Shown: piece by piece, positions 32,168 to 56,740 of the stretch
How the letters are laid out: the number at the start of each line of letters is the position of its first letter
How positions within the stretch are numbered: position 1 is the stretch's first letter
IMG/VR virus record: IMGVR_UViG_3300032278_003763
Span: 1 to 56,740 of that record
DNA length: 56,740 bases
Origin: a virus
Reading direction: 5' to 3' (one strand)
Translations under genes and position numbers: made by a program
Notes under the pieces: generated by a model
Seen by the model: only the letters and a program-made list of their open reading frames with translations
Databases searched by the model: none
Told to the model about the DNA's origin: nothing

Positions 32168-32173
32168 TTGACC

Positions 32174-34439: not shown

Positions 34440-34465
34440 TAGACTTCTTTAAACAAATATATATT

Positions 34466-37529: not shown

Positions 37530-38617
37530 ATAAGCAGTGGGAGGAAGTGGAGCCTATAGTCGCTAAGAGACTTGCTCACGTACATAAACACTCTTCTTAT
37601 ATCCTAGGCGAGGACGTCGCTGTCTTCGAAGAAAATTTTGCCTCCTTTCTCGGCGTCAAATATGCTGTTGGAGTTTCTTCCGGGCTTGACGCTCTGAAGA
37701 TAGGGCTGAGGGCTTTAAATAAAGACGAGGAAGATACCGTCGTCTTCATGCCGGCAAACACCTTCATAGCCACAGCTATTTCTGCCGAGCTAGCTTATCC
37801 TCGCGCCAAAATAATGCTTGTTGATTGTGATAAATATTTTCAAATTAGCATAGAAGATTTAGAAGATAAAATTGAGAAAAATTTAAAATTTAAAAATAAA
37901 ATAATTATTCCTGTTCATTTATATGGGTGCACAGTGGATGCTGTTGGAATAAAAAGGCTAGCAAGGAAATATAAATGTGACATTATTGAGGACGCCTCGC
38001 AATCCCACGGATCGCAATTTAGCGACGGGAGCTTCACTGGAACCTTAGGCAAGTGCGCCGCATTTTCTTTGTATCCGGGTAAAAATTTAGGTGCGGCAGG
38101 AGACGCGGGCATAATTGTTACAAACAATAAAAGGCTTTACGAAAAGATGCTGTCCTTGAGAAACTATGGGTCTGTAGAAAAATATATCCACAAAGACTTT
38201 GGGTACAACAATAGGCTAGATACAATCCAAGCCGTGATCTTAGACGAAAAACTCAAAAAATTGACGAGCTGGAATCATAACAGAAATGATGCCGCCCAGA
38301 TGTATCTAAGAGAGATAGACAACGAACTGGTTAAATTACCAGAAACTCCTAGCTACTGCGGCTTTAACAGTTATCATGTATTTCCGGTCATTTGCGAGAG
38401 GAGAAGAGAGTTACAATTAAAACTAAATGGTGGCGGTGTTGAGACAGGGATTCATTATCCCGTACCCATAGAGCTAAGCCCGCCGTACAAGAGACTGAGG
38501 GCTCGCAGTAAAAATACTAGATTTTTTAGCGAGAACATCTTAAGCTTACCCATACATCCTTTTATGAGGAATAAAGAGATTGCTCATGTTTGTAAATTAA
38601 TTAACGACTTTAGATGA
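37505..38617 (+). CDS. DegT/DnrJ/EryC1/StrS-family sugar aminotransferase
   Basis: 370 aa. PLP-binding signatures: VGVSSGLDALKIGL, IIEDASQSHGSQF and SLYPGKNLGAAGDAG with the Schiff-base Lys. The segment YNNRLDTIQAVILDEKLKKL then TSWNHNR is nearer to C3-amination enzymes (FdtB/QdtB type) than to perosamine synthases; that is an impression, not a computed comparison. It adds an amino group to a keto-sugar nucleotide. Its start overlaps the oxidoreductase end by 25 bases and its stop overlaps the next ATG (ATGA). Confidence 0.85.
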   Translation: MQVKFNNLNKQWEEVEPIVAKRLAHVHKHSSYILGEDVAVFEENFASFLGVKYAVGVSSGLDALKIGLRALNKDEEDTVVFMPANTFIATAISAELAYPRAKIMLVDCDKYFQISIEDLEDKIEKNLKFKNKIIIPVHLYGCTVDAVGIKRLARKYKCDIIEDASQSHGSQFSDGSFTGTLGKCAAFSLYPGKNLGAAGDAGIIVTNNKRLYEKMLSLRNYGSVEKYIHKDFGYNNRLDTIQAVILDEKLKKLTSWNHNRNDAAQMYLREIDNELVKLPETPSYCGFNSYHVFPVICERRRELQLKLNGGGVETGIHYPVPIELSPPYKRLRARSKNTRFFSENILSLPIHPFMRNKEIAHVCKLINDFR

Positions 38618-39582
38618 AAAACTCAGACAAAATATTTGTAGCTGGCCACGACGGCATGGTCGGTTCCGCGATAGTAAGAAAGTTGAGAGCGAAAGGACAT
38701 CACGACAACGTCTTTACTGTGCCTCACGAAGACGTAGACTTAACCAGACAAGATCAAACGGAGGACCTTTTCGAAAGGCTGAAGCCAGACATAGTTGTCA
38801 ATTGCGCGGCAAAAGTAGGCGGAATTCACGCCAACAATACCTATAGAGCGGAGTTCATATACGAGAACCTGCAGATACAAAGCAACATCGTACATAGTTC
38901 TTATAAAGCCGGAGTCGAGAAGCTGTTATTCTTGGGTAGTTCTTGTATATACCCTAAGTTCGCAGACCAGCCCATTAAGGAGGAGTATCTGCTTTCTTCT
39001 CCGCTGGAAGACACCAACGAGCCATACGCTATAGCCAAGATAGCGGGCGTCAAAATGTGTGAGAGCTATAATAGGCAGCATGGGTGTAATTTCGTTTCGG
39101 TTATGCCCACTAATTTATATGGGCCATACGACAATTACCACCCAGAGAATTCTCACGTTTTTCCTGCTTTCATTAGGAGATTCCATGAGGCGTACGTTTA
39201 CAATAGCAAGAACGTAAAGTGCTGGGGCACGGGTAGAGCTAAGAGGGAGTTCTTACATGTTGACGAGTTAGCAGATGCTTGCTTTTTTATTCTTGAGAAT
39301 GTAAATGCTGAAGATTTGAGTAGACAAGGAATTTCTCACCTTAATATAGGTACCGGCCAAGACATATCCTTACATGATCTTGCGTACCTGATTGCTGACG
39401 CTAGTAAATATGAAGGCGCGATAACCTTTGACCTAGATAAACCAGACGGGACGCTAAGAAAGCTGTTGGATGTCTCCAGACTAAAAGACCTTGGTTGGAC
39501 GAATAAGACCTCTTTGATCGACGGGATTATTTCTACCTGCGAATGGTATAAGGAAAATAAAGACACATGGAAAAAGATATAA
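38614..39582 (+). CDS. fcl: GDP-L-fucose synthase
   Basis: 322 aa. Extended SDR: VAGHDGMVGSAIVRKLRAKG is the NADP-binding start, then VNCAAKVGGIHANN, GSSCIYP (Ser and the catalytic Tyr of YAIAK at residues about 140-144 complete the set), and FLHVDELADACFFI. It performs epimerase and reductase steps from GDP-4-keto-6-deoxymannose to GDP-L-fucose. Encoded directly before its partner dehydratase; overlaps it by 16 bases. Confidence 0.92.
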   Translation: MKNSDKIFVAGHDGMVGSAIVRKLRAKGHHDNVFTVPHEDVDLTRQDQTEDLFERLKPDIVVNCAAKVGGIHANNTYRAEFIYENLQIQSNIVHSSYKAGVEKLLFLGSSCIYPKFADQPIKEEYLLSSPLEDTNEPYAIAKIAGVKMCESYNRQHGCNFVSVMPTNLYGPYDNYHPENSHVFPAFIRRFHEAYVYNSKNVKCWGTGRAKREFLHVDELADACFFILENVNAEDLSRQGISHLNIGTGQDISLHDLAYLIADASKYEGAITFDLDKPDGTLRKLLDVSRLKDLGWTNKTSLIDGIISTCEWYKENKDTWKKI

Positions 39583-40664
39583 TTAAAAAAGTGTTGGTTA
39601 CAGGCGTGCTTGGTCAAGACGGAGCGAACATGTGCGAGCTCTTACTCGGAGAGATGAATAAGCTCGGGACGATGAAAGTATTTGGCATGGCGAGAAGATT
39701 ATCTAATCCTAATTATGTAAATTGTAAATCTTTTTTGAGTCACCCCGACTTTCAATTGGTTTACGGAGATCTTTCGGACGAGGTGAGCATAAACAGATTG
39801 GTTCAGGAAATACAACCAGATTATTTTATCAATTTCGCAGCCAATTCTTTCGTAGGTTGTTCGTGGGGTATGCCGCTTCAGGTTTTTGACGTTAACAGCC
39901 TCGGCGTCTTAAGATGCTTAGAGGCAGTTAAGAACTACAAGCCGGACTGCCGGTTTTATAGCGCTGGCAGCAGCGAACAGTTCGGTGACGTAGACTATTC
40001 TCCTCAAGACTTAAACCATCCTTTTAAACCAAGAAGCCCTTACGGCGCTTCTAAATGTGCGGCGCATCACATCATAAAGGTGTACAGAGATTCTTACGAT
40101 ATGTATGCAGTACAAGGGGTACTTTTTAATCACGAAGGCACTAAGCGTGGAGAGGAATTCGTGACAAGAAAAATTTCAAAAGGCGTAGCTAGGATATATA
40201 GCGAAATTAAAAACGTGAACAACTGGAGAGGGCGTCACGGGGTGGCTGCAGAATTTGACCCAATCGAATTAGGAAACCTTGATTCTAAAAGAGACTGGAG
40301 CGACAGCGAGGATTTTATGAAAGGCGTTTGGCTTATGCTGAACCAAGGAGAACCCAAGGACTATCTCTTAGCAAGCGGAAAGACCCATTCCATAAGAGAG
40401 TTCGTAGAGGAGGCTTTCTCCGCGCTAGGCCTTGAAGGTCATTGGGAGGGCGAAGGCTTAGAAGAAAGATACGTGGGTTCCGGTGGTAAGTATAAATATG
40501 TCTTCGTAAAGGTTAATCCAGACTTTTATAGACCTGCGGAGATAGAGATATTGCATGGGGATCCCTCCTCGGCTAAGGAAGAGCTTGGGTGGTCTCCCGA
40601 GATTTCGTTTGATGATTTAGTCAAAAAGATGGTTAGACATGATCTAAAACTTTTACAGAACTAA
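39567..40664 (+). CDS. gmd: GDP-mannose 4,6-dehydratase
   Basis: 365 aa. KKVLVTGVLGQDGANMCELL is the NADP-binding glycine motif of GMD; INFAANSFVGCSWGMPLQVF, YSAGSSEQFGDVDYSPQ (Ser/Glu) and RSPYGASKCAAHH (Tyr-Lys) complete the active site, and LFNHEGTKRGEEFVTRKISK is the conserved GMD substrate segment. It makes GDP-4-keto-6-deoxy-mannose, precursor of GDP-L-fucose and of amino 6-deoxyhexoses. One-base overlap with the following gene. Confidence 0.94.
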   Translation: MEKDIIKKVLVTGVLGQDGANMCELLLGEMNKLGTMKVFGMARRLSNPNYVNCKSFLSHPDFQLVYGDLSDEVSINRLVQEIQPDYFINFAANSFVGCSWGMPLQVFDVNSLGVLRCLEAVKNYKPDCRFYSAGSSEQFGDVDYSPQDLNHPFKPRSPYGASKCAAHHIIKVYRDSYDMYAVQGVLFNHEGTKRGEEFVTRKISKGVARIYSEIKNVNNWRGRHGVAAEFDPIELGNLDSKRDWSDSEDFMKGVWLMLNQGEPKDYLLASGKTHSIREFVEEAFSALGLEGHWEGEGLEERYVGSGGKYKYVFVKVNPDFYRPAEIEILHGDPSSAKEELGWSPEISFDDLVKKMVRHDLKLLQN

Positions 40665-41014
40665 TGAACGCAATTGGGGAGATGATGAAGATAGGCGTAT
40701 CTAAAGGGTTTGCGTTCCATCTTTTGAAAAAGTACCCAAAGGACTTGAAGAAGAAAATAGAGTTCTTTAAGTGGCTTCTTAAAGAGAAGAAGGCTTATTC
40801 TCACAACTATTTCGTTAAGATAGTTGAAAATGGTGCCAGCGGATATTATTTTGATGAGTTTTTGCAACACAAACGGGACGGGGAAGCCATAAAAAAACTC
40901 AAAGACGTTGCTAAGAAGGGACTGATTAGGCGCGAGGTTGGGAAAGAGAAGATAGGACAAGACAAGACGGTAAGAAGAAAGAAAAATATTTTTAATTTTA
41001 TTAACAATGAGTAA
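40664..41014 (+). CDS. Hypothetical basic protein
   Basis: 116 aa, TAATG coupling with gmd. Lys-rich and helical: GFAFHLLKKYPKDLKKKIEF, then LLKEKKAYSHNYF. No known domain. Its end overlaps the recA-like start by eight bases. A DNA-associated role is suggested only by charge and neighbour. Confidence 0.55.
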   Translation: MNAIGEMMKIGVSKGFAFHLLKKYPKDLKKKIEFFKWLLKEKKAYSHNYFVKIVENGASGYYFDEFLQHKRDGEAIKKLKDVAKKGLIRREVGKEKIGQDKTVRRKKNIFNFINNE

Positions 41015-42095
41015 AGAAAAGAAATCAGAAACCTCTCCCTTGAGCCAGATAGAAGCCTATCTGCAGCAGCACAAGGGTGACCATTACAATTTTGAAGAGC
41101 AGCGCGACTATACTATTTCTAGCGGAAGCCTTCTATTGGATATCGAGATGGGCGGAGGCATTAAGCCCGGCGTTGTGCGGGCCTCAGGAGTCACTGAGGG
41201 AGGCAAAACCTCTTGTGGCCTCGCTTTCGCCAAAAACTTTCAGAAGATGGACAACAGTATGGTTATCTACGTTAAGGCCGAAGGCAGATTGTCCGATGAC
41301 CTAATCGAAAGAATGGGTATAGATATCTCGCAAGACAAGTGGTTCGTTTTTAAGTGCAATGTTTATGAAACGGTTATTAACTTAATGAGGCAGATGGTGA
41401 AAGATAATCCTTCTGATACTCGGTATATGTTTATCATAGATTCTATGGATGCTTTGATTCCTCGGGGAGACCTAGAGAAAGGTTCAGAAGAGGCGTTGAA
41501 AGTGGGAGGGGGAGCGTTATTAAGTTCAGATTTTTTACGTAGGATGGCTTTGGGTCTAGCTACTAGGGGGCACGTATGTTATATGATTTCACAAGTGCGT
41601 AGCACGATCAAGATTAATCCATATGAGAAAACCACTCCTCAGGTAACGAACGCTTCGGGAGGCAACGCGGCTTTACATTATAGTGATTGGATTTTAGAGT
41701 TTCAACCGCGATACAACAAGGACGTAATCACCTCTGGAGCCAAGGGTAAAGAAGACATACTTGGACATTGGTGCAAGGTGACCTTTAGAAAAACGCCTAA
41801 TGAAAAGACCGGCGTTAGCGTAAGGTATCCTGTTAGATATGGTAGGGTAAACGGCAAGAGTATCTGGGTAGAGAAAGAGGTTGTTGATATGATGCTGGCT
41901 TGGGACATGGCCACGGCAAAAGGCGCGTGGGTTACTATTTCTGATGAGATTATTGAAGAAGTACAAGAGAAAATTGGCTTAGAGTTCAAGAAGCAGCATC
42001 AAGGGATGGATAACTTGAGCAAGTATTTCGAAGAGAATAAAGAGGTAGGTAAATATATGTTTCATAAATTCAGGGAAGCGCTCAAAAGGTCATGA
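41007..42095 (+). CDS. RecA-like recombinase (UvsX/Sak4-type ATPase)
   Basis: 362 aa. Walker A GVTEGGKTS (residues 61-69), Walker B YMFIIDSMDALI (near residue 140), and RecA-like downstream elements: ATRGHVCYMISQVRS and NASGGNAALHYSDWILEFQP. The overall length matches RecA/UvsX, but the Walker A 'TEGGKT' differs from the usual 'SSGKT'. Homologous strand exchange in phage recombination and repair; the annealing protein at 19.4 kb may assist. It sits inside the glycan cassette, a mosaic position. Confidence 0.85.
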   Translation: MSKEKKSETSPLSQIEAYLQQHKGDHYNFEEQRDYTISSGSLLLDIEMGGGIKPGVVRASGVTEGGKTSCGLAFAKNFQKMDNSMVIYVKAEGRLSDDLIERMGIDISQDKWFVFKCNVYETVINLMRQMVKDNPSDTRYMFIIDSMDALIPRGDLEKGSEEALKVGGGALLSSDFLRRMALGLATRGHVCYMISQVRSTIKINPYEKTTPQVTNASGGNAALHYSDWILEFQPRYNKDVITSGAKGKEDILGHWCKVTFRKTPNEKTGVSVRYPVRYGRVNGKSIWVEKEVVDMMLAWDMATAKGAWVTISDEIIEEVQEKIGLEFKKQHQGMDNLSKYFEENKEVGKYMFHKFREALKRS

Positions 42096-42841
42096 TTTCC
42101 CTGAAGCATAAGTTTCTTTTTATTCACCCCCCAAAGACAGCAGGCACCAGCATAGAGCAGGCTCTAATTGAACATTGTGAATTCATAGATTCTAAATTCC
42201 GGACGGTAGGGAGAAACCCTTTACCAATAAGGAGTCAGATGTATAGAGGGAGAAATACGAAACACTGGACCCCAAGATACTACTCGAACAATTTTGATAC
42301 TAGGGGGTTCTTCAAGTTTGCTAGCATAAGAAATCCTTGGGATAGGTTTGTGTCTTATTTCTTTATGTTAACCAAAGAGCCTTGGGTGCGTGAAAATTTT
42401 CATGAATTTATTGTTCAGTGCAAAAACGACTTTACCAATACTAGATTTTCTTTTTATAGGGGCGAGGAACTCCCTTCCCATGTTCCTGAAGAAGACGAGC
42501 ATTGGATGCCTTTAGCAATGACTGGTCGGTGTGTGGATTATGACAGATGGGATTTTCGGAGTTGTCATAAAATGCTTTTGATAAACCAAACCAGAGAAGG
42601 AGAAGAGATGGACCATTTTATCAGGTTCCATAATTTGCAAGGAGACTTTGATGAGGCTTGTGATAGGATAGGAATATCTCGGAAGAAGCTTCCTCACCAT
42701 GGAAATGGAAGAGCGCCCGTAGAAAATGGGATGGGCTACACCAAACATTATACTGAATATTATGATGACGAATTAATAGAAATCGTTGCCAAAAACTATA
42801 AAGATGATATAGATTATTTTGGTTTTAAATTTGGAGAGTAA
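42092..42841 (+). CDS. Sulfotransferase, family 2 type
   Basis: 249 aa. MISLKHKFLFIHPPKTAGTS: the 5'-phosphosulfate loop with Lys15, the usual HxPKTaGT signature. ASIRNPWDRFVSYF is the RNPxDRxxSxy 3'-phosphate site. These belong to the Golgi-type carbohydrate sulfotransferase family (Sulfotransfer_2), which acts on glycans. It is a tandem paralogue of the next gene (RNPWDR, LPHH shared). ATGA overlap with the RecA-like gene. Confidence 0.85.
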   Translation: MISLKHKFLFIHPPKTAGTSIEQALIEHCEFIDSKFRTVGRNPLPIRSQMYRGRNTKHWTPRYYSNNFDTRGFFKFASIRNPWDRFVSYFFMLTKEPWVRENFHEFIVQCKNDFTNTRFSFYRGEELPSHVPEEDEHWMPLAMTGRCVDYDRWDFRSCHKMLLINQTREGEEMDHFIRFHNLQGDFDEACDRIGISRKKLPHHGNGRAPVENGMGYTKHYTEYYDDELIEIVAKNYKDDIDYFGFKFGE

Positions 42842-42843
42842 TA

Positions 42844-43527
42844 ATGATAAGTTTTGAAAAACGTTTTATTTTTGTGCACACTCCCAGAACTGGTGGGACG
42901 AGCATGGAAGAAGCCTTGATGGAAAGTGTCCGAGATTGTGATATACATGATGGCACTAGGCACTGGCCCTTAATAGCTTACAATAGTTCTTGGGCCAAAC
43001 TTCAAACCGGCGCTCGGTGGAATAGTTCTCTAAAGTCTGGGGACACGGTCCCCTTGTATGTTGAGTCGAAGAATTTGATTGATGACTACTTTAAGTTCAC
43101 TGTGGTTAGGAATCCTTGGGACAGAATGCTTTCGTATTTTTTGCATCTTAATGGAGGGTTTGACGAAAGGTTATTTCCCAAAATGATCAGGTTGGCTGGC
43201 AAGTCTGGAGAAGGATTTTATCCTTTCGTTAATAGAGAAAGACATAACCTTGGAGAGGACGACATCTTCCGCGTCAATTTTCAAAGTTGTCATAGCATGG
43301 CCCACAATAAAGACGGAGCTAACTCTATTGACTTTATATTGAGATTTGAAAACCTTCAAGAAGATTACGACGCCCTGTGCGATAAGATCGGGATAGAGAG
43401 AACAGAGCTTCCTCACCACAATAAGTCTGATCGGGGTCACTATAGAGACTACTATAAAAAAAGAGAGATAGATATCGTTCGCAAGAACCTTAGACAGGAT
43501 ATAAAAAAATATGGCTACGAATTTTGA
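42844..43527 (+). CDS. Sulfotransferase, family 2 type (tandem paralogue)
   Basis: 227 aa. MISFEKRFIFVHTPRTGGTS mirrors the previous gene, with Arg in place of Lys in the phosphosulfate loop; TVVRNPWDRMLSYFLHLNGG matches the 3' site. Both share the LPHH stretch (GIERTELPHHNKSDRG here). Start two bases after the previous stop. The central part differs, suggesting another acceptor. It overlaps the methyltransferase by 17 bases. Confidence 0.83.
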   Translation: MISFEKRFIFVHTPRTGGTSMEEALMESVRDCDIHDGTRHWPLIAYNSSWAKLQTGARWNSSLKSGDTVPLYVESKNLIDDYFKFTVVRNPWDRMLSYFLHLNGGFDERLFPKMIRLAGKSGEGFYPFVNRERHNLGEDDIFRVNFQSCHSMAHNKDGANSIDFILRFENLQEDYDALCDKIGIERTELPHHNKSDRGHYRDYYKKREIDIVRKNLRQDIKKYGYEF

Positions 43528-44143
43528 TCAAAAGAAATGGTGGGAATATGTTGGAAGCCACCCGGACATAAAGGGCACAAAAACCCACATATGGACACCC
43601 CATAAAGAAGGCGGGGCTTGGCAGGCTACGCCTATATACGAACCCCACCTAAAGATACTAAAGGAGAACATAAAGTTTGACAAGGTTTTAGACTTTGGTT
43701 GCGGTTTAGGTCGCAACTTTCCGACCCTAGAGGCTCTCTTTGAAGAAATACACGGGTTTGATACCTGCCCAATGGTTGACAAGCTCGTCTCAATTCATGA
43801 GGAAGAGGGGCTTGGATACGAATTGCTTACCTGTGATTGGGACGCCCACAAAGATAACGTGTTCGATTGTGTTTTCGAATGCACGGTTCTTCAACACATA
43901 CCAACGGAAGAGGTGAAGTCCAGATTAAAAGACATTAGTCAAATGACAGAGTATTTAGTTGGTAATTTTCGCAGCTTTAATGACCAAAACAGAGACTTCA
44001 AGCAGAACTTTGGCGGCCACAATATGATGCAGTTAGTTGAGGAAGTTGACGCTTTTGATATTGTTGACTGCTCTATAGACCCTTGGTCTGCGGCTACGCT
44101 AATGGATGATACGCACTACAACATTCTTCTGAAGTCAAAGTGA
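43511..44143 (+). CDS. SAM-dependent methyltransferase
   Basis: 210 aa. Class I signature VLDFGCGLGRNFPTL (residues about 57-71), then IHGFDTCPMVDK (motif II acidic end) and DCVFECTVLQHIPTEEVKS, the 'f..v.lqHip' motif of small-molecule or sugar methyltransferases. Context suggests methylation of a glycan or metabolite in the cassette; substrate unknown. It ends overlapping the next GTG. Confidence 0.75.
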   Translation: MATNFDQKKWWEYVGSHPDIKGTKTHIWTPHKEGGAWQATPIYEPHLKILKENIKFDKVLDFGCGLGRNFPTLEALFEEIHGFDTCPMVDKLVSIHEEEGLGYELLTCDWDAHKDNVFDCVFECTVLQHIPTEEVKSRLKDISQMTEYLVGNFRSFNDQNRDFKQNFGGHNMMQLVEEVDAFDIVDCSIDPWSAATLMDDTHYNILLKSK

Positions 44144-44556
44144 GGTTATATAATATACATGGGAAGCTCGTTAGTAAAAACGTCTCGAAATACTTAATTA
44201 AATGGGACGGAAAGTCTCGTTCGAATATACAGTTCAAAACCAAGCAGTTTCTTAAAAAGCATTGGAGCAATCAAATAGTTTACGAGGAGTTTCCTGTATA
44301 TGGTACCAGAATGAAGGTAGACATACTAAACGCTACAAAAAAGATAGCAATAGAGGTCCAAGGACGTCAACATACTAGCTTTAATAAATTTTTTCACGGC
44401 AACTCCAGACTAAAATACCTAGAGTCAATTAAGAGAGACTTTCAGAAGAGAGAATGGCTCAAAAAAAACGGCTTTCAGGTAGTAGAAATAGAAGAAGATG
44501 AGGTAAAAAAGCTTTCTGTTTCCTTTTTTTTAAAATTCTTTAATATAAACGTATAA
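44140..44556 (+). CDS. PD-(D/E)XK nuclease, resolvase/Vsr-like
   Basis: 138 aa, GTG start overlapping the methyltransferase stop. The active site is visible: MKVDILNATKKIAIEVQGRQ (Asp, then E-x-Q/K), with a basic helix before it and the hydrophobic NGFQVVEIEEDE afterwards, the DUF559/Vsr-like fold. Likely a phage DNA endonuclease in recombination or repair. The stop codon overlaps a TATAAT. Confidence 0.68.
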   Translation: MRLYNIHGKLVSKNVSKYLIKWDGKSRSNIQFKTKQFLKKHWSNQIVYEEFPVYGTRMKVDILNATKKIAIEVQGRQHTSFNKFFHGNSRLKYLESIKRDFQKREWLKKNGFQVVEIEEDEVKKLSVSFFLKFFNINV

Positions 44557-44557
44557 T
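44552..44557 (+). promoter_or_regulatory. Possible -10 of promoter for the giant surface-protein gene
   Basis: Perfect TATAAT over the stop codon of the nuclease gene, about 178 bases before the ATG at 44735. A matching -35 is poor (TTTAAA). Downstream the 12-mer AGTGTAATCATT (44567-44578) recurs at 18353-18364. Confidence 0.3.
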
Positions 44558-44734
44558 CCCAATAACAGTGTAATCATTCACAATAGGTGTGTCGGTGACA
44601 CCTTTAAGGCGACGGGCGAGTGAAATGTTGAGGGATTTAGGATTTTTTTGTCATTTTTTCAGGAAGGTGAGCCCTTTTGGGGCTCATCATCGCTTCTTTG
44701 TCGCCCCATCATTTCAGACGGGGGGGAATAACTA
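44557..44734 (+). other. Leader of the giant gene with two hairpins
   Basis: Non-coding. Contains a hairpin AGGT-GTC/GAC-ACCT (about 44586-44604), a 7-bp hairpin TGAGCCC-TTTTG-GGGCTCA (44668-44686) and the T-run at 44643-44649. The start at 44735 is preceded by an unusual GGGGGGG (44720-44726), eight bases before ATG, acting as Shine-Dalgarno. No separate gene is seen. Confidence 0.5.
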
Positions 44735-47700
44735 ATGCCTTACTATTCAAGGGTGCTGCACGGGGCGAGTATGCCGCCAATTGAGCTGCAAAGTTGCATG
44801 GCCAGCATGTTGGACTGCCCTCTGGTTGGCGGTTCGGACACGGACCCATGTGGTAACACTGCGTGGATTGAGCCTGTTACCGTTTATTGGGATAGTAGTG
44901 AGGGTGGTAACGCCACCTTGCCGGATGTTGGCCAGACTCTTTATTGTGACGATCAAGATTCGTATGCGTATGCAGTCAATAGTTATTTTGATGATATGGA
45001 CGGAAATGGCTGTTGCGACTGTCAGGATGCTGGCTTCACTACGATGATAAATTCAGACGTAGATCATTTTTTGGCTTCTGGCAATGAAGATGGTTATTTT
45101 TTCATGCAGTCGGATGACGACGGAACTAATACAACGGAGAGTTGGGAGATAGGAACTGATTCGACGTTTAATTCTGTAAGCTCTTGTTCTGGCACTCCGA
45201 CACCAACACCTAGTCCATCACCATCACCGACGCCGTCGCCGTCACCGTCACCGACACCGTCATCTACGCCCTGTTATACTGCTGAGACAGCTCACGTTTC
45301 TTATTATGATGAGTCCAACGGCTACTTGAAATATGCTAATAACTCTAGCGGAAGTTGGGTAGACACGACCGTTTCCGATACCGCTACGGATGGATTTTAT
45401 ACTTCTATTGCTATTGACAGTAGTGGTAAAGTGCACATAAGTCATCACGAAGAGTACCGTTCCCTTCGATATACAACTAATACTAGCGGGAGTTGGGTTA
45501 CCACAGAGGTAGACGGCAATGATGTCACTGGTAAGTGGACATCCATTGTTGTAGATAGCAACGACAACCCACACATAATTTATGTAAGCGAAGAGGATCA
45601 GGAGGTTAAGCACGCCACGTGCTCGTCGGACACCTCTGTCGCCGGCAACTGGACAATTGAAACGGCTTTTTCGGGGGTTGAGCCCAAGTGGGCTTCTGTT
45701 GCTATTGCTGATGATTATCTTTATCTCAGTTTTGCTGACGATGGTATGCTTGTCACAGCTACCAATTTCGGTGGAGGTGGTTGGGTTTCCGAGCCCTTAT
45801 TTTCCGAAGGTCTATACTCATCGATAACTTTAATAAAAGACGGTAGTGATATATGGCAACGGCATATAAGCCATGTTGATTCTAGCACCGGATATCTTAG
45901 ATATACGTATAGCCACGGATCTTCTAGTTGGTCGGTGGAGAATATAGATACTACTGTATATACAACATATACTTCGATTGCTGCTGCTTCAGACGGCTCC
46001 CTTCACATATCTTATGGGGACGAGGATAATTATGCACTTAAATATGCCACGAATGAACATGATGGTACGAATTGGATAATAGAAACAGTTGATGATGGTG
46101 ACGCTGGAAGCAATACTGTTGGCGAATGGAGCTCTATCGCTGTAGATGGGAACAACGTTGTTTATATTTCTTATTATGATGATACAAATGCAAACATAAA
46201 GGTCGCCGATAACCATTGTGGTTGGAGCATTCAAATTGCAGACGATGAGGATTTGGAGAGCGGTGATACCGTAGGACGATACACCTCTTTAGCTCTTGGC
46301 GCCGGCGGTGCTACCGATACGCCTACACCATCACCTAGCCCTAGCCCTACGCCATCGCCGTCACCAACGCCTACGCCCTCGCCGTCACCAACGCCTACGC
46401 CCTCGCCGTCACCAACGCCTACTCCTTCGCCGTCACCAACGCCTACTCCTTCGCCGTCACCAACGCCTACTCCTTCGCCGTCACCAACGCCTACTCCTTC
46501 GCCGTCACCAACGCCTACGCCATCACCGTCAGCTACTGCGTCACCGTCACCGACGCCTACTCCTTCGCCTTCGCCTTCGTCGATATGCCCACCCACGGTT
46601 TACGCCTACGGCTTCCAAGCTCCCAACGCTCACTTTAATGGCACTTGGCAAATAATTAGTGTCATTGTTAATGGTCGTGAGGTTTATCGAACCGGCTCGC
46701 CCGGTGCGTATTGGTATATGTGGTACGGCGTCGGTGGATGGAAAATGGGCAATTTGGTAACTGCTGATTGTTCGATGGATACCGACGAAAGTTGTCCGGA
46801 ATCAATTAGCGCAGGAGACTGGGGGGCGTGTGGTGGCACGACAACCACAGGCACTGGGACACCATCACCTAGTCCGTCACCGACGCCGACGCCGTCGCCT
46901 AGCCCGACGTCGGAGGGTGATGATGGATGTGATGGGTGTGTAGACGTGACTGGATTTGATGCGGTAGCTAATGGAACCCTAAATGGAGTTTATACAAGGG
47001 GGGCTTCGCTCTGGTATGGAAAACCGTATTGGGAGAAGGGCACCAATGGTACGGGGTTTGCTTACGCATATATTTATTATAATCCAGCGAATAGTAGATG
47101 GGAAATAAGTTACGCTACTTTTTATGATAATGGCATCGGTGTCGCTTGGTGGGCGACACAAGACACTGATCAAGCTTGCCCGTTCTCAAATTTAGACGGT
47201 TGGACTTCTAGCGGTAATGTTGGAGGCACCCCACTCTTAGCGACGAATAGTTGTCCGACTGAGACCCCTACTCCGTCGCCGTCACCGTCTCCTAGTCCGT
47301 CGCCCTCGCCATCAGCTACTGCGTCACCGTCACCAACTCCCACGCCCTCGCCATCAGCGACGGCGGGGGGTTGCCAAGGATGCGAAGACCCCGAGTATCC
47401 GGGGACATATGCCGCATTGTGGAATTATCCTAATTTTATTGATTACTGCGATGGAGATGGTCCAACTATAGCTTGTTACAAAGGTAGGTGCTATAGATGT
47501 ACTGAGTATGTAGGACCGAACGGCGCCAACAACTTACCCCCAGATCAGACAGATAAATGGGTGATAGATGATTGTTGTGATGGTTCGTCTTGCTGCCCGA
47601 CTGGGTCACCGACTCCTACGCCGTCACCGTCACCATCACCCACGGCATCATGCGATGGTGAGACATGCGGAGACTTTTTCTCTTGGGTGAGCTGGGAAGG

Positions 47701-50700
47701 TCTCAATGAAAATAGAGATTATAGTAGTCCGATAGGTCATCATATTTGTTACGATGATAAGTGCTATGAATTAATAGGAGCGCATGGAGCAAATGCGGGT
47801 GGTCAGCAATACGAGCCGGGGGTAGATGGGTCAGAGGCTTATTGGAAAGAGGATATTTGTTGTACTGAATTAGCTTGTTGTCCGACGAACACTCCGACGC
47901 CGTCACCATCGCCGTCACCATCGCCGTCGCTCTCTACCCCAATAAAAGTTCCAATCACTTTATATGCTAAATCTAGATCACGACTTAACCCTCCCGGGAA
48001 AGATCCAGAATTTGTATACTTTGGTTATCAAGAGGGAACGGAAGAAACCCTGACTTGTTGTAGTCTGGGCAGTTTATCTACGACTGTTTACTATTTTGAT
48101 GATCCAGACGAAAATCTTCGAACAGGGGTGACTTCGGGCACAAAACTATATTTAAATTCGGTCCTTGACGATTATACAAGAGCCGAAAGCCTTCAATTGG
48201 CTGCGCCAGACCCCTCACCTGAAGATAACCTGTTCCTCATAGAAGGCGATCAGTATGTTATAATTGGATTGTCCGGTGATGACATAATCGTAGATGAGAT
48301 AGACGATTGTATGTGTCCGACCGAGACCCCTACTCCGTCGCCGTCGGCCACCGCGTCACCTACCCCATCACCATCAGCTACCGCGTCACCGTCACCGTCA
48401 GCCACCGGGTCGCCATCTCCATCGCCTAGCCCGACTCCTTCTTGCCCGGCTTGCGACATAGGACCTTACAACCCAAATGAATGTCTATATCTTACGGGCG
48501 CGGACGGGTCTGATGCAGCTCGAGTTTGTCATGATGGGATTTGTTATATAGCTGCCGTCCCCAATGGTTCTTGTGTTAGAAGCCAATGGGATGATCCGGA
48601 TTATCCGTACGTGGGTTCTTCTATGTGGCTTGATTCATCATCTCGCTATGCTCTTGAGCAGCTAAAGAAAAATGATGGTGAGACTTTATATACCGCGGAG
48701 CAGGTTGATACAATAATATTTGAGTTAGAATGCTGCAGCGGTAGCTGCTGTGGAACACCGTCGCCGTCACCGTCACCGTCACCATCAAGCACGCCAGAGG
48801 ATCAGGATCAGGCCTCTGTTGAATGTCTGGGCTGTGGCGAGTTAGATATTTTGCCTTGGAACGACAGCCAACCGGTCGATTACGAAGTCCAGATTGCCGA
48901 CCCAGATACTGGAGAATTTCCTCAGACTTACGTATGCCATAATGGTAAGGGTTATAGACTCTTAGAGAGCAACTCTTCTCAGGAAGGAGCCGGGAATTAT
49001 CCTTATGCTGTGCCCGGTGAGGACGATTCGATGTTCTGGCTCGAGGACGAATGCGCTAATCTTTGTTGTCCTACGTCAACCCCGTCACCAACCCCGTCAG
49101 CAACGCCTAGTCCGTCGCCAACGGTGACCCCCACCGCAACGCCAGAGCCGGGCGTGGTTTGGAAGGTAAAATTGTGCGTAGGTAGTCAATCGGTGTCCTT
49201 TTTCAGATTCCCTGACGATTTTGACCCTGACTCGGAATTCGTAAGATTGACCGCCGTGGGTGCTGAGTCCGGTTATTGCTATGAAATAGAGGGTGGGGCG
49301 GGAGCAGACCATGCTGAATATGAGGCTTGGGAAGCTCAAGGCAATACGGTAGTCGAAATAAAAGGTAGCGAATGGGGAATTAAAGAATTCGATAGCTGCA
49401 AAGAGTGCGTTTATGGGAGAATGGTCGAATGGACTGCTTGCTCGGGTGAAATTAATTATGTTTTTGTTGGGGATAATTCTTGGCAACCCGCAGCGGGAGA
49501 TCAGACTACTTGGAGTAATCTACAAGGTTTTAAATCAGATCATATACCGGGAGATGAGGGTGTGGATACTTGGACGGTAAGTCATAGTGGCGCGCTTGCG
49601 CAGGGCCGAACCAACACGTGTTACAAGGTCGCTTATATACCCCCCTCGCATGATGATTATAGCGCAGGCTTTCCTATAGCTTTAAATAACTATAGGGACA
49701 CCGGCTTTACTTATGCTTTTGATAACCAAGTTAATGAAAGCATGCTCAATTGGTGGCAAAGCGGCGCGGAAGGCCCGCCCAAGTATCAAGATGTACATGA
49801 TGTCTGCGAAGATTGGTGGCAGTGTGCTAAAAGAATTTACAGACATATCGATTTTAGTTTTAGTTGTGATACCGGTCAGTGGATTGACCCCGACAACCAA
49901 GAAGCCGGAGTTGTAGCCGAAGGACCAGTAGGCAGCCCCGAAACTGCCGCTTGGAAACCTAAATTGTGGCTTAACGGCGGTGCCGATTTCACCGGATTTG
50001 CAGAGTGCTCTCTCCCCACTCTGGTTACAGAGGGATGGCACCACCATCTCACAGAGTATGATGCTGATGGTAAAGCCGAAATTATTTGGTATAGATATAC
50101 TTGGCCGGTTAGATATAACCAAAATTTTGTAACTTATCAGGGCGGCGTCCCTACGGTCACGAATAAACATGATCAAAAATGGGGTAACGTTGGGCCTCAC
50201 GTAGGATGCGCTGACATTAATGATAAGGCAACGGCAGCCGATGCGGGATTGACTGAAGGTGAGAAAATTGTAAAGGATGTATCAACAGACCCAGCCGAAT
50301 ACGATGGCACAGAACAGACAGAGAAACTTAATATCATAGCGGGTCTAGATTCAAAATTTAAATTTAGAGAAATTTATCAGAATAATGGGCAAAATTATTG
50401 GAGAACAGTCGTTCCATCCGAGTGTCAGCTAACCACACAGACGACGCCCACGCCGACGCCTACACCCTCTCCCAGCGTAGAGCCGGCGGGAGCTAATTAT
50501 TATTTACTTACTCCTTGTGGACAAACAATAGGAACAATAGACTTTAATAGTTCTTATATAACTAAATTTAAAACCAATGTAGACCTTGATGATAAAAATA
50601 ATAGGGTAATTAAAATTAGCTCTAATTTTTTCCCGCTAAGAGTAGATAGTTATTCTTTACCAAGCAACATTTATAATGGTCCATGCGTAAAAGTACAAAA

Positions 50701-53700
50701 GATAACCCAGTCAGAGTACGACACTCCCGGTGGAGGACAAAGGGTAGATGGAACACTAAACAAGTACCTCCCCTCCTTTGGGTTCGAAGACACGAGTGGG
50801 ACAGAAGAAGAAGATTTAACGACACTGTGCAATCTATGCGTTAATACAACCGAAAGCGAAATACGCGTAAGATTAATAGAGTGCGGCACGTCTAGCGCCA
50901 AAGAATTCATATTAAGAGCTGACCCAAATAATCTTTTAACACACTTACCTAATAATGTAGTAAATGCAATTAGATTTAATTCTCCTAACCCTTACGTTAT
51001 AAAGGCTTATCAAGCAGTATACACACAGGGCGGCTTGCTGAACGCCCTTACTCTAGTGGATCAAGTTGCCAGTTTAGCTACCGCCGCCTGTTATACCGCT
51101 GTTCAAGAGATTGTCGACACTACCTATACTATTAATGATTATATATATCTTCTTGATGAAGGCGTTAATTGTTTGGATAGAGACTGTTTAGAGAGCACTC
51201 TCTCCGAACAGTTGGGGTGCGAAGAAGGTGCATCTCACGTAGTCAGAAACAAAACCCCGCAACAGTCTTGCGTAGATGGTTACGCAGAGTATGTAAACTC
51301 CATAGATGATGGAAGTGATGAAATCATAAGTTATGGGCAGTTTGTTTCTCAGGAGTGTGAATGCGTTGGGGGAGAAATTCCTTTAGTCCCGACATTACCT
51401 GCCGAATTGGAATGTTGGAGCGAACACATTCAGTATGAAGATAAAGCGAAAGTCTGTTTTAACAGTTCGGTTTATATAGCGTATAACTCAAGCGTGAGTA
51501 TCCCTCCGGCGGGAACTGCTGAGTCGGTTTTGTTTTGGACAGAGTCAACGGTACCAGAATACATAGATCTCTGCCCCAAGGATTGTCCAGATGTTGGACC
51601 TACCGCATCACCATCGCCGTCACCATCGCCGTCGCCATCACCGTCGCCGTCGTCTATTTCTCCTCCTCCTTTACCTCCGGTTGGGCCTACGCCTACCGCT
51701 ACGCCTACGCCATCACCGTCAGCTGAAGCACCGGATTTTGATTGTCCTAGCGTTAGAGTTGCTGACTCACCGTATCCTGAGATTAATCAATGTTATACAT
51801 TCTCTCAAGGCGCGTTCTACGGGGAGAACAATGATTCGCTTATAATGTGGAAGATCCATTTGTTTCAAGGTGAGAGATGGGTTATATCCAAGTACGATTC
51901 TCTGAATAATGCAGCTGGATGGGTTCCCCATCACGTTGCTAGATATAATACTCACTATGGTTATGACTTTCGGACGCCGACTCAAAATCCCGTGCCGGGA
52001 GATTGGATGGGTGGCGGCGAGTGTCCTCACGAAAAAATTGAGATAATGGATACCAACGGCTCGTACCTCGCGAACAACTGGGGCGCGACGTATCTTAGTG
52101 GTGAGATAACTGTCACTGAAGGCTGTCCGACTGGGTCGCCATCGCCAACGCCATCGCCGTCAGCCACTGCGTCACCGTCACCTAGCGCTACTGCGTCGCC
52201 ATCAGCTACCGCGTCACCGTCACCAACGCCGACGCCATCACCGTCAGCTACCCCGCTAGCTGAGACCCCTACTCCGTCGCCGTCACCATCGCCGTCTCCC
52301 AGCCCGTCAGCCACTGCGTCGCCGTCAGCTACTGCGTCACCGTCACCTAGCGCTACTGCGTCGCCGTCAGCTACTGCGTCACCGTCGCCGTCGCCATCGC
52401 CTACGCCGGGTTCACCTTTAACTTGTGCTGAAGCAGACATAACAACCTTCATAAAAGACAGCGTCGAAGAAAATAATGCAGTTTTCATTGGTGAAAGCCA
52501 CGGAATGATGTCTACACTGAGGTACCTGACAGATAAGACGACTGATATTTTGCCTCCGGTGGCCAACGAAGAAGCCATCCACTATTCGCGAGTTTTCTTC
52601 ACCGAGCTTCTTTATTCTGGCGACTCGAGCACAAAGATCGTATCCGACTACCAAGCGAAGGTGTCGGCCCTTGGCATACTGGCTAGTCAAGGGACTCCGG
52701 AACAATGCGCCTTGATAGAGTCACTGAAAGATCGAGGAGTCGATCAGCAGGAAGCACTCTGTTGCCACAATGCTTGGACACCGGCAGAGGACCGTCCTGA
52801 TGCCACCTTGCCCGAAGAAGGTTTTGCAATGGAGATGGTTAAGCTGATAGAATCAGTTACGCTTGCGGGTATTGAAGTCTTAGGTGTTGAAACACCTCCC
52901 TCGGACCCGGCTTACATTTTGGCAGGCAGAACAACCCCCACAGGGGTAGTAGCCCGAAACAACCAATGGGCGGCCGTCATTAATAAATGGTTGGAGGAAG
53001 AAAATGACTGGCGCACCTTCAACGCTCCGCTGATGGGGGAGCCTACGTTTATTATTCATGGTGGCTCGGATCACGGTAGCGAAGGGAGAGTGCCGACCGA
53101 TACTGGTGTAGATCAGATGATTTTTAAGGACGGGGTATCATCCGACGCGGGTGGCCACATGGATATAGACTCTTTTGATTTTCGGTTTCCTTCGTGTCCT
53201 GAGGCAATCGCTGCAAGGTTTGGGATTGATCCCGCTGCATATGGTCCATGGGCTGGGATACCAGCCGCTGAGCTGGATGGCGAGGGGTACAAGTATGGTC
53301 TTGCCAGAATGTCCTCCAGCAGCGGTGGCAATGATCATGCTCCTGCAAACTTCGATACGGGGCTTGGTCCGTACGAAGAAGGACCCTGTATGTGTTTGTG
53401 GGAAAACGATGGGCGTTTAAACCAAGGAAACTATGATCAGACCCAAGACGCGTCAAGTGATTATATAGTTTTCATAAACGTATGTTCTGAAGATGGTCTT
53501 TCTTATGTTAATTATGATTGTACTACCCATAGTCATCCATACGACGAACCGAATTGTCCAACCGGCACAGCGACACCGACACCGTCTCCTAGTCCGTCGC
53601 CGTCACCATCAGCCACTGCGTCACCGTCACCGTCACCGTCACCGTCACCATCATCTACCGCGCCGGAGACTGTTTTTCTATATAAATTTGCTCTTGCTGA

Positions 53701-56700
53701 AGTGTCCGCATCTGATGCTAAATATGTTTGGCAGTCGCGTGTAGATGGAGCTCCAGAGTGTCTTGATCCGCAAAGCGTTACCAGAGGCAAATGGCTAGTA
53801 AGCAAAGATCCGACATCAGGAGAATGCATATTTGAATATTATTATGAAGATTTAGATAAGCTAATACCAGATGGCGCTGAAACCGAATGCATAGACGACG
53901 GGGTAAATGTCTTTTCGTTGGCCCCCCAAATACCGTTTGCGCAAAACCCTTACGTATTAGAGCCGTTTTTAATTAATGTTGATGGTTCTCTCAATGTAAA
54001 CTCTATCCCTTCAGAGATTAAGACTTTCATAGAGGATAAATGCTCGGACATTCTGCCTCCTGACGGGCCGACAGATACCCCAACGCCGTCGCCATCAGCA
54101 ACACCGAAAGGAGATTATTGCGGAGTTAGATTTAGAGTAGGAATAGAGGTTGATGATTGGGATCCTCAAGAAACCAAGGTTTGGCATCCCGCGAGCGAGT
54201 CTTGGGTACTTAATCCAAATTCGAGCTCGGTTCTTTTTGGGGGGGACCCAGCAACTCGTTATTACAAAACTTTTGGCATTGGCATGTCAGCACAGGATCC
54301 ACCGGAGGTGATGATCCCGGGGCCGTATGATGATAATGGGGTACTTGGAGAACTTATATGCACAGAAAAATTTCATAATTGGGAGTTTATTAAAGAGTCT
54401 GGCGGAGGACCCCAAGGTGAAGATATATGTTACTTTGAAAAAATACTTCCAGTTGTTACAGACGAGCAAGATGGTTTAGGTCGCATTGAACTATGCCAAG
54501 GCGAGTTTTGTACTAAGGAGGGCATAGACTTAGAGCGCTTGTCTTCTTTTGGCGAGATTTATGAAAATCATAAGGGGGAGATTAGATTAACTAGAAGTCT
54601 TCTTTGGGGAATATCTAAGGCCCTATCGAAACATTGGATGGTTGATGAGAATGATGAGTTGGATTCATTATATGGACAAGTTAGAGATGCTATAGCTCCA
54701 GATTATTCTTCAAAGGAAGGTGGCTTTTTCGAGTTTAAGCTTCAGGGCGATGTTCAAAATGGTTTTGATAGTGGTGGTTGGACTCTTTCAGAAGAGGGTC
54801 TTATAAGAACGGTTTATAAATGGTGGCAGGGTTTCGCCATCGGTACGGACGCGACAGGACTTGCGTGGGCAATCAAGAACAATCGGGTTTGGATTTCCGA
54901 AAACATGGGGCAATTGGCTTTCGACTGGATGACAAGACACGGTAAATCCGTTCCTCATGCGGGGGTCGATGCTTTGTATGATTATAGTGACCTTCCTGTT
55001 ATTGGTGGTTTACCGGGAATATCAAAGGCGACAAATCCTGCTCTTTCTTATAATGAAAAATGGAACGGATTAATCTTAGCCCGTATACATCCGGGTGGGG
55101 CTATTGATGATGACCGGGAGACTTGGCATGGCAAGTGTCTTTCTACAGCAACGCCATCGCCATCACCGTCGCCGTCAGCTACTGCGTCACCGTCAGCTAC
55201 CGCATCGCCATCACCGTCAGCTACCGCATCGCCATCACCGTCAGCTACCGCATCGCCATCACCGTCAGCTACTGCGTCACCGTCGCCATCACCCTGTGGT
55301 ACTGCAACGCCGTCACCGTCAGCTACTGCGTCACCGTCAGCTACCGCGTCACCGTCACCATCGCCATCGCCATCACCGTCAGCTACCGCGCTAGCATGTC
55401 AGCGTATTCCAATTAAAGTAGTTTATGATGTATTTCAGTTCAATAAGTCGCAAGGAACTAATCCTGTTCAGACAGGTATATATTCAGGATTTAGTGGTAA
55501 AGATCAGGCCTGTGATGCAGACGAGTTCCCGACTATAACCGTCTATACTGACACTTTAATAAATGGCGTTCTTGATGGGGGGGAAATTCTTTATAAAAAC
55601 TGTGAACTTGAGGATACTTCGCCTGCTCTTCTAAGCGATCAGATTGCCGGCCCCGAAGAAAAGTGGTATAAAGTTCTTGAGATAAACGATGTTAGAGTGG
55701 GTGGACAAGCCTCGCAGAATGAGTCGATGTATATGTCTGTTAGACTGCATGTTGGCATAGCGGGTGCCGTTGATACCCTCAAAGTGGAGGAAGCCGACGT
55801 GTGTGCTACCCCATCACCATCACCGTCTCCTAGTCCATCACCGTCAGCTACTGCGTCGCCATCACCGTCGCCGTCAGCTAGTCCATCACCGTCAGCTACT
55901 GCGTCGCCATCACCGTCAGCTACCGCGTCGCCGTCGCCGTCAGGCACTCCGTCACCATCGCCGTCAGGCACTCCGTCACCGTCGCCGTCAGGCACTCCGT
56001 CACCATCGCCGTCAGGTACCGCGTCACCGTCACCGTCAGCTACCGCATCGCCATCACCGTCAGCTACCGCATCGCCATCACCGTCAGCTACCGCGTCACC
56101 GTCACCGTCTCCTAGTCCGTCGCCGTCAATTACTGCGACACCATCACCGTCGCCTACCGGTACGCCGTCGCCGTCAGCTACTGCGTCACCGTCGCCAACT
56201 CCCACGCCGTCGCCATCACCCTGTGGTACTGCAACGCCGTCACCGTCAGCCACTGCGTCGCCGTCAGCTACTGCGTCGCCGTCGCCGTCAGCTACTGCGT
56301 CGCCGTCGCCAACTCCCTCGCCGTCGCCATCACCCTGTGGTACTGCAACGCCGTCACCGTCAGCCACTGCGTCGCCGTCAGCTACCGCGTCACCATCGCC
56401 GTCTCCTAGCCCGTCGCCATCACCGTCAGCTACTGCGTCGCCATCACCGTCAGCTACCGCGTCGCCGTCGCCGTCAGCTACTGCGTCGCCATCACCGTCA
56501 GCTACTGCGTCGCCATCACCGTCAGCTACTGCGTCGCCGTCACCGTCAGCTACTGCGTCACCGTCACCGTCAGCTACTGCGTCACCGTCACCGTCAGCTA
56601 CTGCGTCACCGTCGCCGTCAGCTACTGCGTCACCGTCGCCGTCAGCTACTGCGTCACCGTCACCGTCAGCTACCGCGTCGCCAACGCCAACACCGTCGTC

Positions 56701-56740
56701 ATCACCGTCAGCTACTGCGTCACCGTCACCGTCAGCTACT
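44735..56740 (+). CDS. Giant modular surface / fibre-like protein with mucin-like linkers (3' end outside window)
   Basis: 4002 codons without a stop, open at the right edge; I followed the same frame through the window. Folded modules separated by Pro/Ser/Thr/Ala linkers. Approximate residues: 1-153 N-terminal; 181-527 seven-repeat beta-propeller ([17 protein letters not shown]-type repeats); about 618-710 and 730-840 two related modules (NGT[WY], G..VY.., W); 880-957, 972-1051, 1237-1341 and 1355-1448 four Cys-rich modules; 1069-1199; 1472-1903; 1916-2290; 2331-2466; 2561-2944 ChaN/EreA-like (GESHG, H2589, E2719); 2978-3116; 3126-3471; 3552-3691. From about 3692 only linker repeats are seen. 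No signal peptide. Likely a virion surface or fibre protein; phage glycosyltransferases upstream suggest O-glycosylated linkers. Confidence 0.8.
46355..46522 (+). repeat. 24-bp tandem repeat, SPSPTPTP linker
   Basis: Seven consecutive copies of a 24-bp unit (tcg ccg tca cca acg cct acg/act cct/ccc) coding SPSPTPTP. Units differ at third positions only, except the last. The flanking linker is more diverged. Such repeats expand by slippage or recombination, changing linker length by eight residues at a time. Confidence 0.9.
52131..52413 (+). repeat. SPSATA-type low-complexity linker repeat
   Basis: About 94 codons of SP, TP and SATA units ([18 protein letters not shown] and similar), interrupted once by [11 protein letters not shown]. 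It precedes the ChaN/EreA-like domain. Third positions vary, so the units are older than those at the 3' end. Confidence 0.8.
55147..55395 (+). repeat. SPSATA-type linker repeat
   Basis: Repeated SPSPSATA units (tca ccg tca gct acc gca tcg cca), including four near-identical 24-bp units at about 55194-55289, and a single Cys in SPCGTATP near 55291-55311. Links the 3126-3471 module to the 3552-3691 module. Confidence 0.8.
55807..56740 (+). repeat. Long SPSATA / SPSGT linker array running off the window
   Basis: At least 311 consecutive codons of low-complexity linker: [16 protein letters not shown] units (about 55930-56025), and single-Cys SPCGTATP units at about 56213-56235 and 56330-56352. 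Between 56420 and 56683 are 11 head-to-tail 24-bp units (tca ccg tca gct act gcg tcg cca) differing only at third positions. The array continues past the edge and has no folded module in it. Confidence 0.88.

Follow-up and report, generated by a model that had tools for sequence, protein, structure and literature searches.

The adhesins of gut phages that carry Ig-like, BACON or PKD domains, and Hoc of phage T4, are described as holding phage particles to surfaces, and Hoc as having a C-terminal capsid-binding domain (PMC13370021). Here, we describe a giant gene with modules and linkers in an uncultured phage, IMG/VR record IMGVR_UViG_3300032278_003763. The window, that is, the whole stretch of DNA analysed, is the entire record, a linear contig of 56,740 bp; the giant open reading frame (ORF) is open at its right edge and the stop codon of the gene lies past this edge. 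In some uncultured tailed phages, the interval between an endonuclease gene and dnaB, referred to below as the slot, contains large genes with linkers. The giant gene is not a lone oddity; by position, it is an unusually large version of the first gene (ORF1) of a two-gene cassette that fills the slot in some relatives.

Filled and empty slots in related contigs

Relatives were sought with the RecA of the window (41007–42095), which also encodes a ribonucleotide reductase; the search gave 38 IMG/VR loci, with 64–85% identity where most of the gene was covered, and, in INPHARED, nothing that reached 60%. A homologue of the endonuclease was found in 34 of 35 related contigs (35 of 36 with the window), the exception being G027, where the 683 bases that follow RecA show none. 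The slot is empty in 26 of the 36 contigs, where dnaB begins −22 to 420 bp after the endonuclease gene, and filled in nine, the window included; these are counts of contigs, not of independent phages, as there are near-copies among them (e.g., G015/G016, G009/G032 and G029/G030), and the 36 contigs hold 30 different RecA sequences. Both sides of the slot are seen in G034 and G015, with 10,234 and 12,879 bp, respectively, between the endonuclease gene and dnaB. The other seven filled contigs (G009, G035, G012, G016, G032, G013 and the window) end inside the slot, 708 to 12,187 bases past the endonuclease gene, six of them in linker sequence and G016 in the ORF2 region. In the window, a large linker-bearing ORF directly follows the DUF559 endonuclease gene, the product of which matched PF04480 (DUF559) at 6.4e-4 and 20.0 bits, below the cut-off of 20.6; no dnaB is seen in this contig.

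The slot was also approached from the dnaB side. This search gave 44 loci, of which the 38 with new identifiers were examined; six loci (L309, L310, L315, L319, L321 and L344) lie on contigs already counted. Of the 38, six are filled and four have too little upstream sequence; in the other 28, the gap measures −5 to 1293 bp. Among the filled loci, L309 is G034, L310 is G015 and L312 is 100% like G015, so that L311, L313 and L338 are new. The dnaB of the filled loci, where seen, is at least 62.8% like that of G015, and that of the empty loci about 58% or less.

TATAAT is present at the endonuclease stop codon in seven of the nine filled contigs versus four of the 26 empty ones (near-copies counted), which suggests that the cassette has its own promoter; promoter-like matches numbered two, versus a mean of 0.7 (SD, standard deviation, 0.8) in shuffled sequences, and are not clearly above chance. 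On the RecA tree, the filled state requires three changes, versus a mean of 8.1 with shuffled labels and none of 500 shuffles that low, a result that the near-copies favour. The window itself is placed by this tree among empty-slot phages (99/98), but its tail tip protein, relatives of which occur in 11 of the 35 RecA-related records searched, is nearest to those of filled phages (956–1018 vs. 442–585 bits). The two placements therefore suggest recombination, in which either the RecA region or the cassette probably moved between lineages.

Two genes fill the slot in relatives

The slot contains two genes wherever its far side is visible: ORF1 and then ORF2. In the relatives, ORF1 consists of modules and Ser/Thr-rich linkers followed by a linker-free end. 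ORF1 and ORF2 have 1305 and 2953 codons in G015 and 1286 and 2103 codons in G034 (stop to stop); in L338, L311 and L313 the end of ORF1 is followed by an ORF2 of 2096, 2195 and 1646 codons, respectively. The linker-free end of ORF1 has 617–718 amino acids (aa) in all five members seen, and for ORF2 every one of their 10 pairwise comparisons shows homology (E about 2e-13 or better). Profiles made from the ORF1 end and from ORF2 matched no ORF outside the filled phages, among the ORFs compared, and none in the window, whose contig stops first.

At 4002 aa or more, the ORF of the window is over three times as long as the two complete ORF1s. When its modules, with the linkers masked, were compared with the others of a set of 66 large or linker-bearing ORFs, none matched at E 0.05; thus, the position of the slot is conserved and its content is not. 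For aa 1–526 of the giant protein, no match was found in the 35 RecA-related records.

The giant ORF, its modules and its linkers

A single frame open to the right edge had been proposed for this region, beginning behind a phage nuclease gene, and both points are borne out. No stop codon occurs over the 4002 codons, where about 189 are expected from the local base composition; for the 3068 module codons alone, 185 are expected and none is observed. Scored by codon usage, with 12 other genes of the window as the training set, this frame is the best of the six in all 16 modules, and the five alternative frames have 1 to 54 stops apiece in every module. The start codon lies 178 bp after the endonuclease gene. 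What had been called a strong poly-G Shine–Dalgarno is a run of seven G residues, eight bases 5′ of the ATG; the run is there, but it makes a possible and non-canonical site. ORFs in other frames and on the opposite strand do occur in the linkers, as annotated (e.g., 55639–56739 on the minus strand), but the minus-strand ORF at 49682–50200 sits within a module. The longest exact repeat in the gene is 92 bp, inside one linker, and that between different linkers 67 bp; the order of the modules is therefore probably sound, but the lengths of the linkers could be wrong.

The linker rule printed 17 modules and 17 linkers and, after a 22-residue piece (aa 2265–2286) was joined to M11, left 16 linkers and 16 modules, the latter ranging from 75 to 426 aa (Table 1). 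The modular build had thus been recognized correctly; the number of modules had been given as about 12, against the 16 counted here, some of which probably hold more than one domain. Residue counts agree with the mucin-like, Pro/Ser/Thr/Ala composition ascribed to the linkers: of 944 linker residues (1079 to 1155 under alternative rules), 310 are Pro, 289 Ser and 161 Thr, in the long Ser/Thr/Pro-rich stretches that characterize mucin-like (PTS-linker) proteins. The giant protein has 116 Cys residues and 483 acidic versus 174 basic residues. That it might be secreted found no support, as hydropathy, used without a dedicated signal-peptide predictor, revealed no signal peptide and no membrane segment; its peak over 19 residues is 1.38, versus 1.74–2.28 in three controls from the window.

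Table 1. Features of the slot in the window and modules of the giant protein (E values unless stated otherwise)
Feature	Position	Strand	Remarks
DUF559/HNH-type endonuclease, left flank of slot	44140–44556	+	phrog_559 HNH endonuclease, 2.5e-8
TATAAT, candidate promoter box of cassette	44552–44557	+	overlaps endonuclease stop codon
Giant ORF, by position ORF1 of slot cassette	44735–56740	+	ATG start, 4002 codons, open at right edge
M1, N-terminal, Cys-containing	44735–45181	+	weak likeness to N-terminus of G009 slot protein and to G035 linker protein
M2, repeated units, bacterial/archaeal repeat family	45275–46306	+	best match 39% over 328 aa, 3e-45
M3, M4 family	46586–46846	+	28%, 7e-5 to M4 in 16-sequence database
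M4, M3 family	46919–47254	+	weak likeness in G009 and G035 linker proteins
M5, family of small Cys-paired modules	47369–47593	+	comparison within the protein
M6, M5 family	47654–47881	+	0.001 to M5
M7, tentatively M16-like	47942–48316	+	28%, in alignment only
M8, weakly placed in M5 family	48452–48748	+	0.06
M9, M5/M6 family	48800–49066	+	M6–M9 2e-5; M5–M9 3e-4
M10, Trp-rich	49154–50431	+	relatives sought, none found
M11	50480–51592	+	end (51347–51592) a weak fifth M5-like copy (0.012)
M12	51734–52120	+	linker rule
M13, FIGESHG motif	52424–53554	+	no match in family searches
M14	53672–54064	+	linker rule
M15	54113–55138	+	relatives sought, none found
M16, tentatively M7-like	55394–55801	+	in alignment only
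Terminal linker, at least 313 aa	55802–56740	+	24-bp repeat, 38.6 copies; contig ends inside

M5, M6 and M9 form a family of small Cys-paired modules (2e-5 to 0.001), to which the end of M11 and M8 are more weakly related. M2, the repeats of which we take to form a beta-propeller, matched 76 of 80 loci from bacteria and archaea, all of them chosen with a pattern derived from its motif (at least 119 stretches, from which 80 loci were kept) and thus preselected for the M2 repeat; as a direct query against genome contigs, M2 found no relatives. Pfam scans of all 16 modules gave no family over the cut-off, NCBIfam scans nothing at E 0.1, and no enzyme family was matched in these family scans. A search of INPHARED with aa 1–2945 found no match (aa 2946–4002 lay outside the search), nor did M13 there, and direct searches of IMG/VR with M10, M13 and M15 found no relatives. 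A first linker pattern had no occurrence elsewhere, and a second occurred at 23 loci, none with module similarity.

Several candidate labels were discarded. The only PHROGs match under 1e-3, phrog_15511 (of unknown function; 1e-7; six of 20 records), was rejected as a family link, as four of its five stretches in the window lie mostly on linkers; 16 PDB rows were discounted, most being on the second linker. A carbohydrate-binding module (CBM) label, CBM5/12, suggested to the eye by motifs in the M5-like modules, was dropped after no CBM profile matched in the Pfam scans, and ChaN/Tiki, considered from a motif for M13, after PF04187 gave no match at E ≤ 10.

Linker proteins near the head–tail genes of relatives

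Proteins with Ser/Thr-rich linkers and Cys-containing modules, and in this like the slot gene product, are also encoded in the structural regions of G035, G012, G009 and G015; unlike it, they lie at another locus, and the profiles of the ORF1 end and of ORF2 do not match them. That of G035 (44255–48181) lies between the terminase side (phrog_2, 5.6e-23), where collagen-like (6e-10) and LamG (2.7e-8) proteins are also encoded, and the tail genes; in the PHROGs scan of G035, seven of 10 proteins had no match. The linker ORFs of G012 (53140–57414) and G009 (71565–77177) are upstream of the tape measure gene and on its strand, and that of G015 (174699–178487) is at the contig end. Profiles of M1 and of M3/M4 weakly match the proteins of G035 and G009 (domain E values of 4.8e-4, 0.003 and 0.017), and in three of the four phages (G015, G012 and G009) the 6-mers of the slot linkers are most like those of the structural-region linkers of the same phage. 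As far as the present sequence searches go, the statement that the module mix resembles no tail fibre stands, but relatives do have, near their head–tail genes, linker proteins whose modules show a weak similarity.

Other large proteins were noted in these phages. The empty-slot phage G033 has three consecutive linker ORFs of 1443, 3010 and 3707 aa (48663–74022, minus strand). In G012 (57414–63881, minus strand; L118:3-3881), an intein splicing domain (PF14890, 1.9e-10, over the cut-off) is present in a giant protein that bears LamG domains and linkers. Four ORFs of G035 (54536–60677), lying among virion genes, have collagen-like G-x-TGP repeats by eye; the one that was scanned matched PF01391 at 6e-10. 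G035 (L066) and L338 share the IMG record 2716884425, which is not of the 3300 series; a single-cell or isolate source, which is a guess, could point to the host.

In the window itself, the tape measure ORF (3–8798; at least 2931 aa) is cut by the left edge, and relatives matching its C-terminal part reach 5143 aa. A block of sugar-modifying genes at 32168–43527, upstream of the giant gene, encodes two GT2 proteins, three sulfotransferases, a formyltransferase, a Gfo/Idh oxidoreductase, a DegT aminotransferase, an NAD-dependent epimerase and a GDP-mannose dehydratase. A protein with a sigma-70 region 2 (23444–24070; PF04542, 9.4e-8) is a possible phage sigma factor.

Proposed function and alternatives

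Judged from sequence, surface binding would be the most economical reading of the giant protein. We lean, with some reserve, towards the view that the giant ORF is the 5′ part of a gene that its position marks as ORF1 of a two-gene accessory cassette, and that it encodes an adhesin fibre exposed on the particle and anchored at its C-terminus; the location on the virion surface is inferred. The C-terminal region of ORF1, perhaps together with ORF2, would fix it to the virus particle, and its N-terminal modules would be held out on extended, possibly glycosylated stalks. The modules may attach to glycans or to other host or particle surfaces, weakly one by one and strongly together through avidity, and swapping of modules and stretching of linkers would change the targets and leave the tail tip untouched. 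About 620–720 more linker-free residues, then ORF2 and then dnaB are predicted past the right edge of the window.

Several observations weigh against this adhesin. The giant gene, which begins at 44.7 kb next to the endonuclease gene, is in the replication region, away from the head–tail genes (the lambda-like tail genes are at 8.8–18.3 kb). Its C-terminal end, any ORF2 and dnaB fall beyond the contig edge. In the relatives, the ORF1 ends are homologous by BLAST in two of 10 pairs (G015–G034, 24%, 6e-13; G034–L338, 3e-5), and a profile built from G015, G034 and L338 fails to match L311 and L313; ORF2 of G015 has one segment with a hydropathy of 1.76. No carbohydrate-binding family was matched by the modules in Pfam or NCBIfam, and structure prediction from single sequences (aa 1–1200 and 2330–3472) gave no usable model, with a mean predicted local distance difference test score (pLDDT) of 32.8 and 31.8. 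The links of M1 and M3/M4 to the structural-region proteins are weak, with domain E values between 5e-4 and 0.02 when 12 profiles were run against 14 sequences, and an M3/M4 profile built from five sequences recovered its own seeds only. The sharing of linker 6-mers within a phage fails in G035; with k set to 5, G009 is tied, and with k set to 8 only G012 and G009 keep the pattern. Linker proteins near structural genes are likewise found in the empty-slot phages G033 and G028. Finally, PF03567 sulfotransferases occur in four of seven filled and four of 10 empty-slot records and are not linked to the slot, which weakens a connection with glycosylation.

A gene in the replication region, with its own candidate promoter, with a product devoid of a signal peptide by hydropathy and with sugar and sulfotransferase genes upstream, could also encode a very large protein that is released at lysis and acts off the particle, as a matrix, a decoy or a glue for debris, virions and hosts, and no virion anchor would then be needed. 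We regard this as unlikely, if worth keeping in view, because the similar length of the linker-free C-terminal end in all five relatives and the conserved partner gene suggest an anchor, because linker proteins of the same style are encoded near the head–tail genes of relatives, and because the sulfotransferases are not tied to the slot. The slot beside replication genes, together with the enzyme-like motif seen by eye in M13, would also suit a large intracellular or host-directed effector that acts, for instance, on the synthesis of the host surface or keeps other phages out. Linkers and Cys-rich modules are typical of exterior proteins, and the giant protein has both; with no enzyme match in the family scans, such an effector seems improbable to us.

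The protein could also be simply an ordinary long tail or head fibre, of a known kind and encoded outside the tail operon. Linker proteins near LamG and collagen-like genes in a relative, and a 2701-aa protein with 24 similar linkers in another phage group (see below), speak for it. Against this, scans of Pfam, PHROGs and NCBIfam connected none of the modules of the window with a tail-fibre family; for the ORF2 core, PDB gave no match and Pfam only a row at 0.032, in one of five members; the ORF1 end gave three PDB rows at E 0.05–0.28; and in INPHARED nothing matched ORF1 of G015 or the opening 1114 aa of its ORF2. An ordinary fibre is, in our estimation, also unlikely. That several genes were joined at repeats, in an assembly artefact or chimera, is barely credible: the linkers are repetitive, with the exact repeats given above, and the contig ends in one, but the frame is maintained across 16 modules and the same design is found in other contigs, those of the relatives.

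The adhesin could also be part of something larger. A hypervariable cassette of two giant genes might cover the particle with a 'phage mucin' that is glycosylated and in part sulfated, with ORF2 as the base, ORF1 as decorated stalks with exchangeable binding modules and the upstream sugar and sulfotransferase genes doing the decorating, so that the phage would have its own glycan coat and a means of adhesion adjustable independently of the tail tip; this is a long shot. If the particle-borne adhesin itself is real, some uncultured phages devote 10–13 kb or more to an exchangeable binding device coded apart from the tail, and how such phages remain near their hosts becomes testable. The fixed genomic slot lets variants be gathered and compared. 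It is also a place where assemblies break, as the contigs ending in linkers indicate, and its antisense frames invite misannotation. A literature search, with most subscription papers and bioRxiv preprints outside its scope, found no description of the slot cassette.

Comparison with described systems

A counterpart in linker style was found in another phage group, where L016 (2307–10409) encodes a protein of 2701 aa in which 24 linkers of the SPSPTPTP type flank a repeated NCDFDVDVDIATPTPTP unit; its gene adjoins an ORF with repeated Cys-containing units. Like the gene of the window, it has SPSPTPTP linkers between short modules; unlike it, it belongs to a different phage group, and the two have no module similarity by BLAST at 0.01. 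Phage tail fibres and receptor-binding proteins are, like the giant protein, large and modular with hypervariable parts, which in tail fibres decide binding. The giant protein differs from them in having no match to a tail-fibre family and in being encoded away from the tail genes. In tail fibres and receptor-binding proteins, the constant part is usually not C-terminal; in ORF1 it seems to be, the opposite order.

With Hoc and the Ig-like adhesins of gut phages, the giant protein shares a modular and exposed build, and would work as they do, if it is indeed carried on the particle. Constancy at the C-terminus, the pattern expected of an anchor, is seen by length in the ORF1 of five of five relatives and by homology in two of 10 pairs, and the contig of the window stops before it. 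The giant protein is larger than Hoc. It is not a member of this group, as no Ig-like, BACON or PKD domain was found in any of its 16 modules by Pfam, and it is set apart by its Ser/Thr/Pro-rich linkers, by the second giant gene present in relatives and by its fixed slot.

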